Of a DNA stretch of 40,869 bases, positions 13,526 through 40,706 are shown piece by piece; positions within the stretch are counted from its first letter, which is position 1; each line of letters starts with the position of its first letter. The notes below the pieces were generated by a model. It was not told the origin of the DNA. It saw only the letters and a program-made list of their open reading frames with translations, and did not search any database. The stretch comes from a bacterium (GTDB taxonomy: Bacteria; Patescibacteriota; Microgenomatia; Daviesbacterales; UBA10151): assembly GCA_021786105.1 (NCBI GenBank), contig JAJYNW010000013.1:1-40869 (forward strand). Reading direction: 5' to 3'. The position numbers were made by a program, and so were the translations under genes.

Positions 13526-14071
13526 CTATTTTAGCATACTCTGTTTCCGATCCATCCTCTTTTTAAAAAGATTCTCCCTAAACCCGCCTTCATTCACAAA
13601 CTTTTCCTCCAGCCATCTTAGTTTTTGATCTAAAAGCCTGTTAGTTTGATTAATTAAACAGATTATAGCATTAGCCGCCGGTTCTCCTCCATGCTCAATA
13701 TAATTTTTATAATCGTTATAACTATTATAATTGTTATAAACTAAACTTCGAACTCTTTTCGCCTCTGCAGAATCCTTATCCCACAATCTAAATCCATGCT
13801 GGCGTAAAAAGTCCTGATAATCATTTAACAGCTCTTCCAAACTTCCCCTAGCTACTCCTAAAAGTTTAATTCTCCCTTCTAAACTTTTCTGGAGATAGCC
13901 TTCAGGTATATTCTGCTTACCGGATCGGGCAGCCTGTTCCATTTGGTCTTTGGTGCGGGATTTATAATCAATGTACTTTTGGCAAAAAGCCACAGTAAAG
14001 TCATAAATAATTTCTGATTGCTTAAAGAAAGGGAGGTTTTTGTAGCCGCCGTTAATCGTTTGCTTTTTCAT
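13526..14071 (-). CDS. Four-helix-bundle protein with suffix domain (S23/Avd-like)
   Basis: 181 aa. Residues about 12-111 resemble the 23S-IVS/Avd four-helix-bundle family (QMEQAARSGKQNIPEGY, GVARGSLEELLNDYQDFL). A Tyr-rich tripeptide repeat then reads roughly NNY, NSY, NDY, KNY, followed by the C-terminal suffix domain (ANAIICLINQTNRLLDQ, EEKFVNEGGFRENL). Function is unknown; relatives are accessory factors or sit at variable loci. The Tyr-rich repeat is encoded by a 9-mer DNA array identical in type to one that runs right up to the start codon. The TATAAT box 6 nt before the ATG is part of that upstream array. Confidence 0.85.
   Translation of the reverse strand: MKKQTINGGYKNLPFFKQSEIIYDFTVAFCQKYIDYKSRTKDQMEQAARSGKQNIPEGYLQKSLEGRIKLLGVARGSLEELLNDYQDFLRQHGFRLWDKDSAEAKRVRSLVYNNYNSYNDYKNYIEHGGEPAANAIICLINQTNRLLDQKLRWLEEKFVNEGGFRENLFKKRMDRKQSMLK
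13528..13536 (-). promoter_or_regulatory. Extended -10 of the endonuclease Q gene (leaderless)
   Basis: Minus-strand TGCTAAAAT; the hexamer (13528-13533) overlaps the last base of the upstream gene's stop, 6 nt from the ATG. Confidence 0.6.
13700..13735. repeat. 9-mer array, 4 units, inside the four-helix-bundle gene
   Basis: Units ATAATTTTT, ATAATCGTT, ATAACTATT, ATAATTGTT in exact 9-nt register; translated as a Y-rich tripeptide repeat between core and suffix domain. Confidence 0.9.
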
Positions 14072-14107
14072 ATAACCATTATAACGATTATAATTATTAT
14101 AACTGTT
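14072..14107. repeat. 9-mer array, 4 units, abutting the four-helix-bundle start codon
   Basis: Units ATAACCATT, ATAACGATT, ATAATTATT, ATAACTGTT, from the base next to the ATG back to just before the ligase stop. Same orientation and reading frame as the internal array; the minus-strand TATAAT at 14078-14083 is formed by it. Confidence 0.9.
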
Positions 14108-14110
14108 ATA

Positions 14111-18595: not shown

Positions 18596-21500
18596 TTAAT
18601 GATGGTCTACATATCCGTCCCAAGCCTTAATCTCCAAATCTTCCTTTTTCTTGGAAGCCAAAGACGACACAAAAAGCTCTGCTGCCTGCAGATTAGTAAT
18701 TAAAGGTATACCTAAATCCACACAATTCCTTCTAATAATATAGCCAGCAGTCTCCCCAGCTTCTGATCTGGGTTTAGAAATGTTAATCACTAAATCTATG
18801 ATGCCCTCTTTTATCGGATCTAAGATGGAAGGGTACTTTTTCTCAGCGATTTTATGAAGTAAGGTATTTTTAATACCATGTTGGCTCAAGAATTTTGAGG
18901 TATGATCAGTAGCATAAATCTTAAAACCAAGTTCTGCCAATATTTTAGCTGATGGCAGTAAATCTAATTTACTTTTCTCCCCGCCAATTGTTAAAAATAC
19001 AGAACTTTTAGGCATTTTAAAACCAACTGCCAGGATGGCCTTAAGATACGCTTCCTGCAAATCTGAACCAAAACAGGCTACCTCTCCAGTCGAAGACATC
19101 TCTACCCTAAGCCGCGGATCTGCTCCTTTAATCCGGTTAAAGGAAAACTGCGGAGCCTTAACCCCCACATAATCTAAATCAATGGTTTTATAAGTGCCAG
19201 ACAACTTCTCCCCCAACATCACCCGAGTAGCCATCTCCACAAAATTAAATCCCGTGACTTTAGAAACAAACGGGAAAGAACGGGAAGCCCGTGAGTTTAA
19301 CTCAATCACCATAATCTCGTTATCCTTGGCCAAAAACTGAATATTAAACGGACCGTTGATATTCAAGGCTTTGATTATCTTTCTGGTAGCGTCTTTGATC
19401 TTCCTAACAGTTTCCAAAAATAACCTCTGCGGCGGTAATACAATGGTAGCATCACCGGAATGCACGCCGGCATTTTCCACATGCTCAGAGATAGCGTAAA
19501 TTAACAGATCTCCTTTTTGTCCAACCCCATCTACTTCAATCTCCTTAGCCCCGTCCACAAACTTGGAAATTACCACCGGATGCTCAGCGGATACATCGGA
19601 AGCATCTTGCAGGTATTTTTTCAAATCACTATCAGAATAAGCCACATTCATGGCCGATCCTGACAACACATAAGAAGGCCTGATCAGAACCGGAAAACCG
19701 ATGGATTTAGCAAATCCTACAGCCTCATTAAGATCTTTCAAGCTTTGCCAGGGTGCTTGTTTAATCTCTAGCTGATCTAATAATTTGGAGAATTTATTTC
19801 TATCTTCTGCCTGATCAATGCTTTCGGGGGAAGTTCCCAAAATCTGATAGCCAGCTTGAAAACACTGCATTGCCAAATTATTCGGCACTTGTCCCCCAAA
19901 TCCTAATACCAGCGAAACATTTCCTGAATTGTCATCCCGAACTCGTTTCGGGATCTTCATATCAGATGCTGAAACAAGTTCAGCATGACATAGTGATTGG
20001 TTTTCGATATCATATATATCACTCACCCTTTCAAAGGTCAGCTCGTCAAAATACAACTTATCTGCTGAGTCGTAATCAGTTGAAACCGTTTCCGGATTGC
20101 AGTTTATGATAATTGTCTCCAAACCTTTATCCCGTAGAGTTTGAGCACAGGTGACAGAACACCAGTCAAATTCCACCGAAGAACCAATCCGGTAGGGTCC
20201 AGAACCTAAAACAATGGCTTTTTTGGCCTTTGATTCTTTTAGTTCTTCTGATTCTTCTCCATGATAAGTCAAATACAAATAGTTGGTCTTGGCTGGATAT
20301 TCGGCTGCTAAGGTATCAATGTGTTTAACTTTAGGCGTAATTCCATGCTTTTTTCTAAACTCTCTAACTTCATCTTCGGTAACCTTAAAGGCTTTAGCCA
20401 ACAACTTATCCGAAAATCCCAGTTTTTTAGCCTGCAGCACTATTTGGGAACTGATGGTTGACAACTGAAGGCTCTTTTCAAACTCAACAATTTCTTTTAT
20501 TTGATATAGAAACCAGGGATCAATACCAGTAGCCTCATAAATGTTTTCTACAGATTCGCCTTTGGCAAATCTTTGCGCAATGGCAAATAACCGTTCAGTA
20601 GTAGGTAACAGCTTGGTATCGTCTACCTCATTACCCAACAAGCCATCTTGGCCGGTTTCCAACATCCGAATGGCTTTTTGTAAGACTTCCGGAAAACTTC
20701 GGCCGATAGCCATAACTTCGCCCACGCTTTTCATCTCCGAACCGATTTGCTCTTTGGCTCCGACAAACTTTTGCAAATCCCACCGCGGAATTTTAACCAC
20801 AATATAATCCAAAGCTGGTTCAAAAAAAGCTGAAGTAGATAAAGTGACGCTGTTTTTTAAATCCGGCAGGTTATAACCCAAACCAATTTTAGCCGCGATA
20901 TAGGCCAACGGGTAGCCGGTGGCTTTAGAAGCCAAAGCTGATGAACGGGACAGCCTGGCGTTTACCTCAATCACCCGGTAATCGTTATTCTCCGGATTTA
21001 AGGCAAACTGAATGTTACACTCCCCCACAATTCCCAGATGCTCGATTACCTGCAAAGAAATTTTCCGGAGATAATGGTACTGATAATTATTCAAAGTTTG
21101 AGACGGAGCCACCACGATACTTTCCCCTGTATGAACCCCCAAAGGATCCAAATTTTCCATATTACAAACAGTGATCTTATTACCGTTGTTATCCCGCACT
21201 ACCTCATATTCGATTTCCTTCCAGTGCTTTAAGTATTCTTCGATGGCAATTTGCGGGGCTTGCTTTAAAGCCGCCGTCACCATTTTGATAAATCCCTCTT
21301 TACTGTTGACCACCCCGGACCCCAAACCACCCAGAGAAAATCCGGATCTGATCAAAAGTGGGTATCCCAAATCATTGGCAATTTTCAAAGCTTCGTCCAA
21401 GGACCGGGCAAATCCCCCTTTCGGAACTTTCACTCCGATTTTGGAAAGCTCCCCGGCAAATAATTCTCTATCCTCTGTCACTTCAACGGCTTTAACCGGT

Positions 21501-21874: not shown

Positions 21875-22961
21875 ATGATAAAAACTCATCAAACAAATAT
21901 CCGGCATCAACCGGCCCGGGCGAAGCCTCCGGGTGAAACTGCACTGCCATAAATGGCTTCTTCTTGTGCCTGATTCCTTCGTTGGTACCATCGTTTAAAT
22001 TAACAAACCATTCTTCCCAATCAACGCTAAGAGATTTCATATCCACAGCATATCCGTGATTTTGGCTGATAATAATGGCTTTATTGCTGGTTTTATCCAA
22101 CACCGGCTGGTTTTGAGAACGGTGACCGAATTTTAATTTATAAGTTTGCCCCCCGGCCGCCAACCCCATGATCTGGCTACCTAAACAAATCCCAAAAACC
22201 GGCTTGCTCTTGGCCAATAATTGCCTGACTGTTTCTATGGTTTTTTGAGCTTGCGTGGGATCGCCGGGTCCGTTAGAAACCAGCACCCCGTCAAAATCCA
22301 TCTTGGCCTCGATCGGATTAAAATCCCAAGGTACCCTGGTCACCTTCACACCTCTTTTAACCAGGCTTCTGATAATATTTTCCTTAACCCCGCAATCAAT
22401 TAAGACAATATTTTTCTTACCTTCACCATACACCTCAACTTCTTTACAGCTGACATAAGGCAGGACATTCTCCTTATTAGGATCATAGATGAAGTCGTTA
22501 GTCGCCAGAGTCGAGAGTCTAGTATTCTCTTTCTCATTCCTTGACTCTTGACTCTTGACTCTTGACTCTATTCTTCCCAGCATCACGCCGTACTGCCGCA
22601 GTTTGGTAGTCAGAGCCCTGGTATCAATGCCCTGCAAAGCCGGAATCCCTTCTCCCTTTAGCCAGTCACCTAAAGTTTTCTGGCTTTCAAAGTGCGAAGG
22701 ATAGTCTATGTAATTTTGGACAATTAATCCCTTAATCTGGATTTTTTGGGATTCCCAAAAATCCTTTTTCGGTACCCCGTAGTTGCCCTGCAAAGGATAG
22801 GTCAGCACCAGAATCTGGCCATAATACGAAGGATCGGTTAAGGATTCCGGATATCCGACCATACCGGTATTAAAAACTACCTCACCCGAGGTGGGTTGAT
22901 CGGCGCCAAAACTTTGTCCTAAAAAAACTGTCCCATCGGACAGAATCAGTTTCCCTTGCAT
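21864..22961 (-). CDS. carA: Carbamoyl-phosphate synthase small (glutaminase) subunit
   Basis: 365 aa from the ATG at 22961, which has AAAGGA about 6 nt upstream; the ORF-track start lacks this. Class I glutamine amidotransferase with nucleophile Cys in GICLGSQ and His-Glu in HPEASPG. It passes ammonia to CarB. About 20 residues (near SRVKSQESRNEKEN) are encoded by an inverted heptamer-array repeat. Placed 16 nt after pyrB and overlapping carB. Confidence 0.96.
   Translation of the reverse strand: MQGKLILSDGTVFLGQSFGADQPTSGEVVFNTGMVGYPESLTDPSYYGQILVLTYPLQGNYGVPKKDFWESQKIQIKGLIVQNYIDYPSHFESQKTLGDWLKGEGIPALQGIDTRALTTKLRQYGVMLGRIESRVKSQESRNEKENTRLSTLATNDFIYDPNKENVLPYVSCKEVEVYGEGKKNIVLIDCGVKENIIRSLVKRGVKVTRVPWDFNPIEAKMDFDGVLVSNGPGDPTQAQKTIETVRQLLAKSKPVFGICLGSQIMGLAAGGQTYKLKFGHRSQNQPVLDKTSNKAIIISQNHGYAVDMKSLSVDWEEWFVNLNDGTNEGIRHKKKPFMAVQFHPEASPGPVDAGYLFDEFLSYVR
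22507..22568. repeat. Inverted heptamer arrays inside carA
   Basis: TTGACTC x4 perfect (22541-22568), preceded after a short spacer by inverted heptamers CAGAGTC, GAGAGTC. Translated in frame. Confidence 0.85.
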
Positions 22962-24014: not shown

Positions 24015-25100
24015 TTAACCATAAAAGCTCCCTGTGTCAAGTTTTAACACCTGCCCATATGGACCAAATACACTTTGGCCATCATAAGCAATAGCCCCGC
24101 GCAGCACTACTTTTTTTACCTTACCAGTCACTTTCATCCCGGCAAAGGGGGTCCAGCCGGCTTTGGTAAACAAGTGATTAGGGTTTAGGGTATAGGGTTT
24201 AGTGATTTCTGCTTCCACAAAAGTCTCCCGCTGCTCCGGCAAGTTAAAAATCTGGCGGGGATTTTTGGAAGTCAGTTCAATAATTTTATCTACCGTCAAT
24301 TTTCCTTCATTTACCGCTGTCAATAGCAGCGGCAAAGTAGTTTCCAAACCGGGCACGCCATTTGGTACTTTTTCAGAACTCATCTTCTCTTCTTTAGTGT
24401 GCGGGGCATGGTCAGAACCGATCATATCAATTATCCCCTCGGCAATCCCCTGCCACAAAGCTACTTGGTCTTTTTTACTTCGAAGCGGCGGCCGCATCGC
24501 CCCAAATGGCCCTAATCTTTTGGCATCTTCTTCAGTTAAAAACAGGTGGTGACAGGTTGCTTCAGCACTGATTTGTAAACCATTTTGCTTAGCTGCCTTG
24601 ATCATTTCTACTTCTTCTTTTAAAGACACATGGCAAACATGTAATTTATTACCAAATTTGTTGGCCAAACTAAGGGCTTTTTGCAAAGTCTCCCCCTCCG
24701 CATGCACCAAAATTGGTTTTTCTTTGGTCCAAGTTGAAAAGACCTCTTCCAAAATCTGATCATCTTCAATCAACAATTCCCCGGTAGTATGGTTCATATA
24801 CAACTTCAGACCAAAGACTTGATCCTCAACTTCGGCAAAATATTGGATACTTTCCTTGCTGGCCCCGAAATGAAAACCAACATCAGAGTAGATTCGGCCT
24901 TTAGCCAAGTCCATTTTTTGCCGTAAAGCCTCCGCGGTGGTAGTGGGAATCGGATTATTTGGCATATCTAAAACTGTGGTAAATCCGCCGGCAATGGCAG
25001 CTTTAGTACCGGTTTCAAAATCTTCTTTTTGGGTAGCACCGGGTTCCCGAAGATGCACATGAGGATCAACTAAACCAGGTAATTTAACTAAGTTCGGCAT
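24015..25100 (-). CDS. pyrC: Dihydroorotase, CAD-like type
   Basis: 361 aa. It starts MPNLVKLPGLVDPHVHLREPG, lacking the about 50-residue N-terminal beta segment of usual bacterial type I dihydroorotases. The start and the C-terminal GWTPFAGMKVTGKVKKVVLRG closely follow the dihydroorotase domain of animal CAD. Metal and active-site motifs are HVHLR, GLKLYM (candidate carbamylated Lys), HVCHVS and GSDHAPHT. Converts carbamoyl-aspartate to dihydroorotate. Heads the pyrC-pyrB-carA-carB cluster. A TATCAT box ends 7 nt before the ATG, interlocked with that of the divergent gene. Confidence 0.93.
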   Translation of the reverse strand: MPNLVKLPGLVDPHVHLREPGATQKEDFETGTKAAIAGGFTTVLDMPNNPIPTTTAEALRQKMDLAKGRIYSDVGFHFGASKESIQYFAEVEDQVFGLKLYMNHTTGELLIEDDQILEEVFSTWTKEKPILVHAEGETLQKALSLANKFGNKLHVCHVSLKEEVEMIKAAKQNGLQISAEATCHHLFLTEEDAKRLGPFGAMRPPLRSKKDQVALWQGIAEGIIDMIGSDHAPHTKEEKMSSEKVPNGVPGLETTLPLLLTAVNEGKLTVDKIIELTSKNPRQIFNLPEQRETFVEAEITKPYTLNPNHLFTKAGWTPFAGMKVTGKVKKVVLRGAIAYDGQSVFGPYGQVLKLDTGSFYG

Positions 25101-25386: not shown

Positions 25387-26512
25387 TTTGACCATTCTCT
25401 ACCTTTAAAATCCTGGCTGAGTCTAAAAATGACTGCGGAATATTTTCCAGTTCCACGGTGGCAATCACTGTTTGCTGTTTGGAAACCACCTCCACCACAT
25501 GAGCCCGGTGAGAAGCATCTAGTTCAGAAAATACATCGTCTAGCAATAGTATTGGTCTGGTACCCAAAATTTGAGCCATGTATTCCAACTGGGCCAATTT
25601 AAAAGCCAGAGTGGCAGTTCTATGTTCCCCTCGGGAGCCAAATTTAGCTACATTCCTACCATTGTCATTCTGAGGAGTCTTCGACGAAGAATCTCCCACG
25701 GATGTGGGACTCAAACTAGTTGAGAGATCCTTCACTTCGTTCAGGATGACAATACGGAAATCATCCCGGTGCGGCCCAATTAAAGTCGCTGCCGCTGCTA
25801 TTTCCCGCTCCTGCGTTTGAACCAACTTTTCTTCAGAAACCTTGTTTGGAAGATACTCAAACCGAAATTCTCCTAAGGGTTTTTCCAAAGTATTGATAAA
25901 CTCAAAAAAAGCCAGCCTTTTTGTTGAAATAATTTGCCCGTTTTCCACTAGACCGGCAGTCCAATAATCCAGCTCATCCTTCCTCCCCTGCCCTTCCCTA
26001 ATTCTTTTTAATACCCTGTTTCGAGCGGTTAAAAATTGCTCATAATTTGTCAAAGCTTTTTTATACTCATGATCAACTTGAACCAAAGCCAAATCCAAAT
26101 GCCATCGCCGTAAACTGGGTGATCCGGTCACCATATTAATATCAGAGGGGTAAAAAATAATCGCCGGCAGGTGACCAATAAAATCCACTACCCTACGGGA
26201 AATTCCATTAACCAATACTTTCTTTTTAAACCCCACCTCCTTAGATGGCCTGTTGATAATTACCAGCAACTCAGTTTCCCCTGTGTTTGTCAAAAAACCC
26301 TCAACCCTTGTAAACTCTTCCCCTTTTTTGATCAGTTCATCCTCAGTTTCCACCCGCAGGGATTTGGTGGTAGACAGTAGATAAATTGCCTCCAAAATAT
26401 TGGATTTACCAGCCGCATTGTTGCCGACTAGGATGGTGGGACGGGTATCAAAGTCAAGCTCTAGATTAGAATAGTTGCGAAAATTGGTTAAATTTAGCTT
26501 TTTCAAAAACAT
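25376..26512 (-). CDS. recF: DNA repair/recombination ATPase RecF
   Basis: 378 aa SMC-like ATPase. Walker A GNNAAGKSN at 30-38, signature GEHRTATLAFKLAQ, Walker B LLLDDVFSELD. It loads RecA at gaps with RecO and RecR. Residues about 255-283 are encoded by an 87-bp palindromic repeat placed in frame between the HRDDF region and the signature segment; without it the length is the usual about 350. A weak GATAAT lies 12 nt before the ATG. Confidence 0.95.
   Translation of the reverse strand: MFLKKLNLTNFRNYSNLELDFDTRPTILVGNNAAGKSNILEAIYLLSTTKSLRVETEDELIKKGEEFTRVEGFLTNTGETELLVIINRPSKEVGFKKKVLVNGISRRVVDFIGHLPAIIFYPSDINMVTGSPSLRRWHLDLALVQVDHEYKKALTNYEQFLTARNRVLKRIREGQGRKDELDYWTAGLVENGQIISTKRLAFFEFINTLEKPLGEFRFEYLPNKVSEEKLVQTQEREIAAAATLIGPHRDDFRIVILNEVKDLSTSLSPTSVGDSSSKTPQNDNGRNVAKFGSRGEHRTATLAFKLAQLEYMAQILGTRPILLLDDVFSELDASHRAHVVEVVSKQQTVIATVELENIPQSFLDSARILKVENGQITS
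25664..25750. repeat. Palindromic element inserted in frame in recF
   Basis: 87 bp (29 codons) from GTCATTCTGAGGAG to TTCAGGATGAC; the frame is kept. Confidence 0.9.
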
Positions 26513-28098: not shown

Positions 28099-28106
28099 TG
28101 GATATT

Positions 28107-28194
28107 ATAACTCGCCAGAGTTACAAGAGCGAGATGTAATCGAAGCGATTATAACTCGCCAGAGTTACAAGAGCGAGATGTAATCGAAGCGATT
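28107..28194. repeat. Exact 44-bp tandem duplication upstream of the MFS gene
   Basis: Two identical 44-bp units (28107-28150, 28151-28194). Each contains the hairpin TAACTCGCCAGAGTTA and the dyad AATCGAAGCGATT. Each unit junction regenerates ATTATAA, that is a minus-strand TATAAT. Confidence 0.95.
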
Positions 28195-28270
28195 AACAAC
28201 TTAAAAAAAGTAAACAGACTAGCTTTTCTCACATAATTGCAGTATATTACGGCTGAAAATAAATAAATCT

Positions 28271-38456: not shown

Positions 38457-40706
38457 TCAAAACTTAAACAACTTCATTTCTCCCCAATTAGGGCCGGTTT
38501 TGAGATCAACCAGAACCGGCACTGACAATTTTAAAGCATTTTCCATTTTTTCTTTGACCATCTTAGCAGTTTCTTTCACTGCTTTAGGGCCACATTCAAA
38601 CAACAACTCATCATGAACCTGTAAAATGAGACGGCAGCTTTCAGTATCGGCCTTCGGCCTGTCAGCTTTCAGACTTATCTTGTCTGATGACCGATGACTG
38701 ACGACTGACAGCTCTTTCTCAATTTCCACCATGGCTTTTTTGATCATATCGGCGGCCGTGCCCTGAACCGGGTGGTTAACCGCGGCTCTTTCCCCGGCAG
38801 AACGAATCATCCGGTTACCAACTTGCAGCTCCGGAATATACCTTTTCCGGCCCCACAAAGTCTCTACGTAGCCATTTTCATAGCCAAAAGCCAAAGTCTT
38901 CTCCATCCATTCCCGAACCTTGGGAAATTGGGCAAAATATTCAGCAATATATTGTCTGGCTTCTTCAAAACTGATGCCCAATTGCCGGGATAAAGCATGC
39001 GGACCTTGACCGTAAAGGGTAGCAAAGTTCATGGTTTTCCCCACCATTCTTTGCTGTTTTGAAACTTGTTCCAAAGGTACTTGAAAAATCTTGGAAGCAG
39101 TTAAGGCGTGGATATCTTCATTTTCCTTGAAAGCTTTCTTTAATCCCGGGTCATCTGCCAAATGAGCCATAATCCGCAGTTCAATTTGAGAATAATCCGC
39201 GCCCAACAACGCCTTGCCAAAAGGAGCAATGAAAGCTTTTCTGATTTCCCCACCCTCTTCACCTTTAACCGGAATATTTTGCAAATTCGGATCTTTAGAG
39301 GAAAGCCTGCCGGTCGCTGCTCCTTCTACATTAAAAGTCGAGTGGATCCTGCACTTTTCATCCACGAACTTCGGCAAAGCATCAACGTAGGTAGAAATCA
39401 ATTTAAATAATTGCCGGTATTCCAAGAGTAGCGGTACCGCCGGATGAGCACCATATAATTCATGTAAGGTAGCTTCGTCTGTGGAACGGCCGGTTTTGGT
39501 TTTCCTGACCACCGGCAATTTTAACTCATCAAACAGCACCACCGAGAGCTGCTTGGGGCTGTTTAAGTTAAACTCATGCCCGACTTTTTCATAAATCTCT
39601 GCCTCTATTTTGGTTAACCGGTCTTTCAGCTTCTTACCAAATTTTTCCAAAAACTTCAGGTCCACCAGCACCCCGGTTTCTGACATTTTTTTAAGAATCG
39701 GTTCCACTTCCGCATCTAAGTCCATTGTTTTGTCATTCTGAGGGTCGTTTCGACCCGAAGAATCTCTAGGTTCTTGCTTTTTAATCTTGAGATCCTTCGC
39801 TTCGCTCAGGATGACAGAAAAGGAATTGCCGACTGAAGCATCATCAGGCAATCTGGCAATTAAGCTTTTAAACTCCAGTTCCTCAAAAAGCTTGACCACT
39901 TTTTCCTTATCAAAATCATGCACCACGCATTTATGCAGATCCAGCTTAATGGGGGCATTTAGATCCAAAGTAGCCAGCTTTTTACTCATCATTGCCGATT
40001 CTGCCCCTTCCGATAAAAGCATCTGCGTTCGATCCGGCATGGTTTTTAAATTTTCCGGTTTATATATCTCTTCAATAGTGCCGAATTTATGTATCAGTTT
40101 CGTGGCTGTCACATCCCCAATTCCCGCGACCCCCGGAATATTATCCGAAGCATCCCCGGCCAAACCTTTATAATCCGTCAGCTGCTTGGGAAAAAAACCG
40201 TATTTGGCCACAAACTCCTCTACCCCATACAAACCTACATCCGAAAGAGTTTTTTTGGGCATGAAAACTTTTATCCGCTCATCAATCAGCTGCATAATAT
40301 CCCGATCCCCTGTCACAATCACAATTTCCAAATCCTTTTCTTTTTCTGCCTGGATGGCCAAAGTACCAATCAAGTCATCAGCTTCAAATCCGGCCAACTT
40401 AAATTCCGGAATATTAAATGCCTTAACCACCTCATGCACCCTTTTATACTGGCTGGATAAACCATCGTCAGCAGGGCCGCGGGTGGCTTTATATTGGGTG
40501 TAAGCTTGATGTCTAAAGGTAGGCCCTTTTTCATCCCAGGCAATGGCTAAATATTCCGGACGAAGCTCGGCAATCACCTTTAAAATCATCGAGGAAAAAC
40601 CATAAACAGCGTTAACTAGTTCACCTTTTGAAGTCGTAAATGGCGGAGTGGCATGATAGGCTCGGTGCAGTAAGGCATTACCATCAACTAGGACAAGTCT
40701 TCGCAC
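38457..40706 (-). CDS. polA: DNA polymerase I without a proofreading domain
   Basis: 749 aa versus about 930 for E. coli. Residues 1-290 are a 5' nuclease (LVDGNALLHRAYHA, AGFEADDLIGTLA, TGDRDIMQLI). The polymerase domain begins near 330; no 3'-5' exonuclease motifs lie between. Motif A DYSQIELRI, O-helix RMVGKTMNFATLYG with R-x3-K-x3-F-x3-Y intact, motif C QVHDELLFE. Residues about 298-325 (hinge) come from a palindromic repeat and about 665-690 (loop before motif C) from a heptamer repeat. GTG start with AAAGGAGG about 6 nt upstream. Confidence 0.96.
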   Translation of the reverse strand: MRRLVLVDGNALLHRAYHATPPFTTSKGELVNAVYGFSSMILKVIAELRPEYLAIAWDEKGPTFRHQAYTQYKATRGPADDGLSSQYKRVHEVVKAFNIPEFKLAGFEADDLIGTLAIQAEKEKDLEIVIVTGDRDIMQLIDERIKVFMPKKTLSDVGLYGVEEFVAKYGFFPKQLTDYKGLAGDASDNIPGVAGIGDVTATKLIHKFGTIEEIYKPENLKTMPDRTQMLLSEGAESAMMSKKLATLDLNAPIKLDLHKCVVHDFDKEKVVKLFEELEFKSLIARLPDDASVGNSFSVILSEAKDLKIKKQEPRDSSGRNDPQNDKTMDLDAEVEPILKKMSETGVLVDLKFLEKFGKKLKDRLTKIEAEIYEKVGHEFNLNSPKQLSVVLFDELKLPVVRKTKTGRSTDEATLHELYGAHPAVPLLLEYRQLFKLISTYVDALPKFVDEKCRIHSTFNVEGAATGRLSSKDPNLQNIPVKGEEGGEIRKAFIAPFGKALLGADYSQIELRIMAHLADDPGLKKAFKENEDIHALTASKIFQVPLEQVSKQQRMVGKTMNFATLYGQGPHALSRQLGISFEEARQYIAEYFAQFPKVREWMEKTLAFGYENGYVETLWGRKRYIPELQVGNRMIRSAGERAAVNHPVQGTAADMIKKAMVEIEKELSVVSHRSSDKISLKADRPKADTESCRLILQVHDELLFECGPKAVKETAKMVKEKMENALKLSVPVLVDLKTGPNWGEMKLFKF
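38638..38712. repeat. Heptamer arrays inside polA
   Basis: Left array CTTTCAG, TATCGGC, CTTCGGC, CTGTCAG, CTTTCAG; a 12-nt spacer; right inverted array TGATGAC, CGATGAC, TGACGAC, TGACAGC (38685-38712), all in 7-nt register and translated in frame. Confidence 0.75.
39732..39815. repeat. Palindromic element inserted in frame in polA
   Basis: 84 bp (28 codons) from GTCATTCTGAGGG to CTCAGGATGAC, between nuclease and polymerase domains. Confidence 0.9.

Follow-up and report, generated by a model that had tools for sequence, protein, structure and literature searches.

Gene and protein fold

In the window, the whole stretch of 40,869 nucleotides analyzed here, positions 13526..14071 of the minus strand encode a four helix bundle protein with a suffix domain, 181 amino acids in length, which was assigned on the basis of TIGR04258, TIGR02436, and an AlphaFold2 model. 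The protein scores 60.4 bits against TIGR04258 (curated cut-off, 40) and 29.4 bits against TIGR02436 (curated cut-off, 24) and is a member of both families by these cut-offs, while its 29.0 bits against PF05635 (23S_rRNA_IVP) fall below the gathering threshold of 33.8, although the fold still matches PDB 2gsc. The AlphaFold2 model, with a pLDDT of 91.7, is all-helical, its helices including residues 64 to 91 and 129 to 161, and the closest solved folds are those of the S23/IVP proteins 2gsc and 2rld; the crystal of 2gsc, a member of the family, contains five chains. The core, comprising helices 1 to 3 (residues 8 to 91; minus strand, 13799..14050), was delimited with the model and the TIGR02436 match at residues 22 to 83, and the suffix domain (residues 130 to 176; minus strand, 13544..13684) with the TIGR04258 match, the alignment, and the model. 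According to the model, the suffix supplies helix 4 and one more, C-terminal helix, and the linker between helices 3 and 4 is predicted to be the segment encoded by the repeat array described below. The C-terminal helix of the suffix domain holds the pattern GG..E.....R, whose columns are invariant in the alignment of homologues.

By profile search, TIGR04258 is present in 46 of 95 related genomes, and a scan of species genomes found it across many phyla. The suffix protein had no match in the phage collection, and carriage by phages was rejected. The function of the TIGR04258, TIGR02436, and PF05635 families is unknown, and we found no paper in the open-access literature connecting their proteins with repeat arrays.

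Nonamer arrays in the window

Two tandem arrays of 9-nt units belong to this gene. The upstream array, of the type TTATAA-NNN, lies at 14071..14110, has 4 to 5 units (4.4 copies according to Tandem Repeats Finder), and abuts the ATG of the minus-strand open reading frame (ORF) at 14069-14071. The linker array (13699..13739; 4.6 copies) encodes YNNYNSYNDYKNY, between helix 3 and helix 4. The motif ATAAYNNTT is found exactly where the initial annotation had placed it, at 13700, 13709, 13718, and 13727 and again at 14072, 14081, 14090, and 14099. The window contains 37 matches to this motif against 23.7 ± 5.1 expected, and none of 100 shuffled sequences reached at least 37. At a lag of 9 nt, the two arrays match themselves at 22/27 and 20/27 positions, whereas no other lag between 5 and 14 exceeds 16/27. 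The two arrays are real and not a product of chance. The initial annotation had further described them as sharing orientation, register, and reading frame. Their spacing of 372 nt, a multiple of 3, places them in one reading frame, but their 9-nt registers differ, and their common orientation is uninformative, since TTATAA is its own reverse complement and the arrays match both strands. The proposed role of the upstream array as a -10 box is not conserved, because arrays of the CTTAAG or GWC type occupy that place in homologues.

Arrays at homologous suffix genes

Among TIGR04258 genes, periodicity at lag 9 was detected upstream in 25/57, in the linker in 43/58, and downstream in 12/58, with 0 to 1 cases for the other lags from 5 to 14. 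Arrays recur at up to four positions, namely, upstream of the gene, in the linker, in the loop between helices 1 and 2, and behind the stop codon. In a wider scan of 79 loci, seven of which are from close Microgenomates relatives, a matching array with a score of at least 12 lay upstream at 25 and downstream at 23; many homologues have no recognizable upstream or downstream array.

At most loci the linker is a tripeptide run, and the tripeptides differ between loci because each linker is a 9-nt array at the DNA level; examples are YNSYNDYKNY, SNLSNLSDLGNL, KSYKTYETY, NESNLTNWTYW, and the fused form FRxFRx...NTPNTPNLP. The array at the start codon often repeats the linker's unit within one gene, and it does so across several unrelated unit types. 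The DNA-level comparison of homologues suggested in the initial annotation greatly strengthens the observation, in that the linker and upstream units usually match within a gene. That annotation had taken unrelated linker codons combined with a missing upstream array as the sign of chance similarity; linkers do code for different tripeptides, yet many have that differing unit upstream too. As a rule, the unit differs between subfamilies and mostly matches within a gene.

Four nonamer unit types were recognized, of which TTATAA-NNN, CTTAAG-NNN, and AT-NN-GWC-NN have symmetric motifs, while that of TTTAGGG-NN is asymmetric and a linker of this type contains both orientations. The three symmetric types gave 154 array readings, among which lengths of 4 or 5 units predominate (128), with 3 units in 20 readings and more than 5 in 6, and reversed units, used as a control in this count, gave no arrays. 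Since the count covered both strands for two of these types, arrays may count twice, which leaves the shape of the length distribution unchanged. Chance or AT-richness as the source of the arrays was rejected on the grounds of the window shuffles, the narrow unit number, and the specificity for lag 9. A hairpin was also considered as a common feature and was not relied on, as most but not all linkers fold better than mononucleotide-shuffled sequence. A further unit, CCTAGG/ACTAGG-NNN, lies behind the stop codon of a suffix gene on a plasmid of Prevotella nigrescens (L316), a cultured member of the Bacteroidota.

Plain relatives and heptamer arrays

As a control set, we used 36 plain TIGR02436 genes, i.e., genes without the suffix. 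Arrays of lag 7 were found upstream of 23/36 and downstream of 22/35 of these genes, and arrays of lag 9 upstream of none and downstream of one. The two heptamer arms around a plain gene are inverted in 15/20 cases and resemble each other more closely than arms paired by swapping. It had been predicted beforehand that the plain gene of genome G070 would lie between copies of AAATTTC, the commonest heptamer there; this was observed at C2:77858, and no plain gene was found at C1:540-559 kb, the place first guessed. A second plain gene of the same genome (C2:22674) has 9-nt units upstream instead, and the rule that plain genes have a period of 7 therefore has exceptions.

On plasmids of named cyanobacteria, lag-7 arrays lie upstream of 12/14 and downstream of 12/14 plain genes, counts to be read against the general richness of cyanobacterial genomes in such heptamers. 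Trichormus variabilis ATCC 29413 is among the cyanobacteria with a plain gene. These plain genes are located between two type III-B CRISPR genes, between ribonucleotide reductase genes, or between cas6 and cas4, placed as an inserted element would be. In three of the plasmid loci (L305, L306, and L315), plain genes lie within CRISPR clusters, in cas6/cas4 and cas10/cmr2-cmr3 gaps.

In the genome from which the window derives, the plain gene at C17:41799-42116 adjoins arrays of CTNGACT, and such arrays occur at about nine places. One of these, CTTGACT in 4.3 copies, lies within carA in the window (22540..22569, no strand assigned), with a possible left arm at 22507-22522. Heptamers in tandem also occur in three further ORFs of the window, at 2622-2651 (sufS, CTGTTGC), 24178-24202 (pyrC, TTAGGGT), and 38684-38709 (polA, CTGACGA).

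Dispersal of arrays over genomes

Patterns of three units of each nonamer type occur genome-wide, while reversed controls are close to zero. After subtraction of matches near the gene, arrays are more common in genomes that have a gene of the same type, with Fisher P values of 3e-5 (CTTAAG), 0.009 (TTATAA), and 0.002 (GWC), calculated on related genomes and uncorrected for kinship; of the three, TTATAA shows the weakest association, and its background is higher in AT-rich genomes. Some genomes, G024 and G040 among them, contain arrays although no gene was detected in them. In two genomes where many TTATAA arrays remain, short suffix-domain fragments with open frames of 33 amino acids were detected (G032:C29:3890-3979 and G034:C25:4707-4778), which are possibly remnants of the gene. 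A search of the window's genome found only one further nonamer array, at C18:13392-13432.

In the sampled stretches, which include the arrays at the genes themselves, 21 of 40 arrays lie inside ORFs and 19 between ORFs. The intergenic ones mostly span the gap from stop to start codon, and many end within about 10 nt of the start codon. Those in frame in unrelated ORFs encode tolerant stretches of proteins, namely, glycosyltransferase loops, transmembrane segments, and the cores of signal peptides. A nearly complete reading of genome G070 found CTTAAG arrays both inside ORFs and a few nucleotides from start codons.

One site in an unrelated protein was followed across 30 genomes, namely, a loop of the membrane protein which is encoded beside the suffix gene in G003 and G006. 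A GWC-type array occupies the loop in these two genomes, whereas G010 has a CTTAAG array there and G009 has arrays of both types. Most other orthologues contain neither type, and compared with them the protein of G010 is 13 residues longer, that of G009 10, and those of G003 and G006 5. However, the orthologue of G015 is free of arrays yet as long as that of G010, and therefore overwriting is indistinguishable from insertion in the GWC case. Between G003 and G006, whose membrane proteins are 66% identical, the motif bases of the loop array are identical at 32/32 positions, while agreement at the five remaining positions of the unit is 22/40. In G002, whose membrane protein shares 78% identity with the G006 protein, one of nine units is intact at this site, and neither TIGR04258 nor TIGR02436 was found by profile search. 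For this one orthologous site, both genomes with the gene have an intact array, and a relative lacking the gene has a decayed one.

Comparison with known repeat systems

Among known repeats, the arrays can be compared with the STRR of cyanobacteria and the TAACTGA repeats of Beggiatoaceae, which, like the nonamers, are short tandem units, dispersed, in few copies, and often at start codons (PMC4679880). Their unit is 7 nt long, unlike the 9-nt unit of the window gene, and heptamer arrays flank the plain relatives of the window protein, in cyanobacteria as well. A partner protein of the TAACTGA repeats is not known; S1, Csp, and CsrA have been named as candidates, and it was suggested that the repeat-binding protein might itself be a mobile element, which the identification of such a protein would help to test (MacGregor 2015, PMC4679880). 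Rickettsia palindromic elements are likewise dispersed and in frame in unrelated genes, but each is a single palindrome of about 100 to 150 bp with no linked protein (PMC10969869), whereas the arrays described here are tandem, about 45 bp long, and accompanied by a protein.

In organization, the system resembles REP/RAYT. A RAYT is a Y1 HUH transposase, and a chromosomal RAYT gene is flanked by a REP family dispersed over the genome. We observed the corresponding arrangement here, the gene lying between copies of a repeat type that is also dispersed elsewhere, weakly so in the window's own genome. The differences are that the protein is a four-helix bundle instead of a Y1 HUH enzyme, for which Pfam gave no match in the window protein, and that the repeats are tandem arrays, often inside ORFs. 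In our best reading, this would be a repeat-protein partnership organized like REP/RAYT but with an unrelated protein.

Judged against the open-access literature, none of the known systems compared accounts for the putative partnership: diversity-generating retroelements (DGRs) depart from it by the reverse transcriptase, RAYT by the enzyme, Rickettsia elements by size and structure, and STRR by unit length for the window gene; heptamer arrays as such are known. Dispersed tandem heptamers have been described from cyanobacteria, Beggiatoaceae, and Bacteroidetes without a mechanism or partner, and a first candidate partner protein is now available. The fold of this candidate is known, its code is simple (a period of 7, or of 9 if the suffix is present, and a unit type that follows the subfamily), and it yields clear-cut predictions about binding and decay. 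The arrays also illustrate that a constraint at the DNA level can write tripeptide repeats into unrelated proteins.

A putative repeat-protein partnership

The gene and the arrays go together, the subtype of the former with the type of the latter, and the arrays occupy many unrelated places. We think it fairly probable that the gene is one half of a repeat-protein partnership, in which the gene lies within copies of the element cognate to its protein; binding and mobility are what we infer. The protein would bind the array at the level of nucleic acid, and the five-chain family member suggests, by analogy, that it would probably do so as a five-membered ring in which each protomer takes up one unit; this binding would drive the upkeep or spread of the arrays. 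Weighing against the partnership are the homologues with no recognizable upstream or downstream array, the single further nonamer array of the window's genome, the array-bearing genomes with no detected gene, and the restriction of the decay case to one site. Such a ring would account for both the five-chain crystal and the 4 to 5 units, but the five chains of 2gsc are only suggestive of a TRAP-like ring with one unit per protomer. The view of the initial annotation that the protein or its DNA is recognized through the array pointed in the right direction, as the unit usually matches within the gene, follows the gene type, and is dispersed. A wider proposal, which we put forward tentatively and with less confidence, is that the S23/IVP genes form a mobile-element class of a new kind, bounded by arrays of 7-mers or, in the suffix subtype, of 9-mers; the heptamer and nonamer arrays dispersed in many phyla, STRR included, would be its non-autonomous derivatives, with a pentamer reading about five units.

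The arrays might instead be mRNA or promoter sites of a ring-shaped regulator of its own gene and a regulon, comparable to TRAP, which reads spaced triplets, and would have spread by selection of useful sites and not by mobility. The many intergenic arrays that end about 10 nt or less from a start codon fit this, as do the TAACTGA heptamers, likewise found at start codons, for which translational control has been proposed (MacGregor 2015, PMC4679880). The 21 of 40 sampled arrays inside ORFs, transmembrane segments and signal peptides among them, and the intergenic ones that adjoin stop codons argue against it, and we consider this explanation rather unlikely. It and the repeat-protein partnership are not mutually exclusive, and a role of arrays near start codons in regulation, such as that suggested for the TAACTGA repeats, is compatible with the partnership and may be secondary.

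The remaining explanations are far less probable. In the view of the initial annotation, the core would be exchangeable, with recombination of the two direct repeats moving it from strain to strain, and the core of the window gene does sit between two arrays; arrays, however, are also found within the core, past the stop codon, and at a distance from the gene, and genes have up to four array positions instead of two, and in close homologues the gene and its arrays keep their place behind the DNA ligase gene. No core swaps were seen among the homologues compared, and we hold such a cassette to be very improbable. Equally little can be said for ordinary slippage or low complexity, by which chance AT-rich tandem repeats would have settled in a merely tolerant linker: linkers and gaps are tolerant and the TTATAA type is AT-rich, but the period is only 9, or 7 without the suffix, the motif is kept while spacer bases vary, the GWC and CTTAAG types are not of low complexity, the unit number is narrow, and the linker matches the upstream array. 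The least probable is a DGR remnant, with the protein as Avd and the arrays as left-over template and variable repeats. Avd does have a related four-helix fold and is structurally related to PF05635 (PMC10053308), a link which the initial annotation had drawn, but most array carriers are without a reverse transcriptase: no RVT_1 match was found in the array-rich genomes G000 (92% complete), G003, G006, G017, G044, G070, G082, and G091. The arrays are also much shorter than such repeats and lie at many loci.

Other repeats in the window

Conserved genes of the window contain in-frame inserts, namely, HAELVSASDMKIPKRVRDDN at 19928-19987 (carB), IVILNEVKDLSTSLSPTSVGDSSSKTPQND at 25664-25753 (recF), and VILSEAKDLKIKKQEPRDSSGRNDPQND at 39732-39815 (polA). 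They are a family different from the arrays and look like palindromic elements writing protein, and a similar insert, SVILSAAKDLK...SSSRTPQND, was found in G004. Finally, a perfect 44-bp tandem duplication is located at 28104-28195, directly upstream of a LuxR-like gene.
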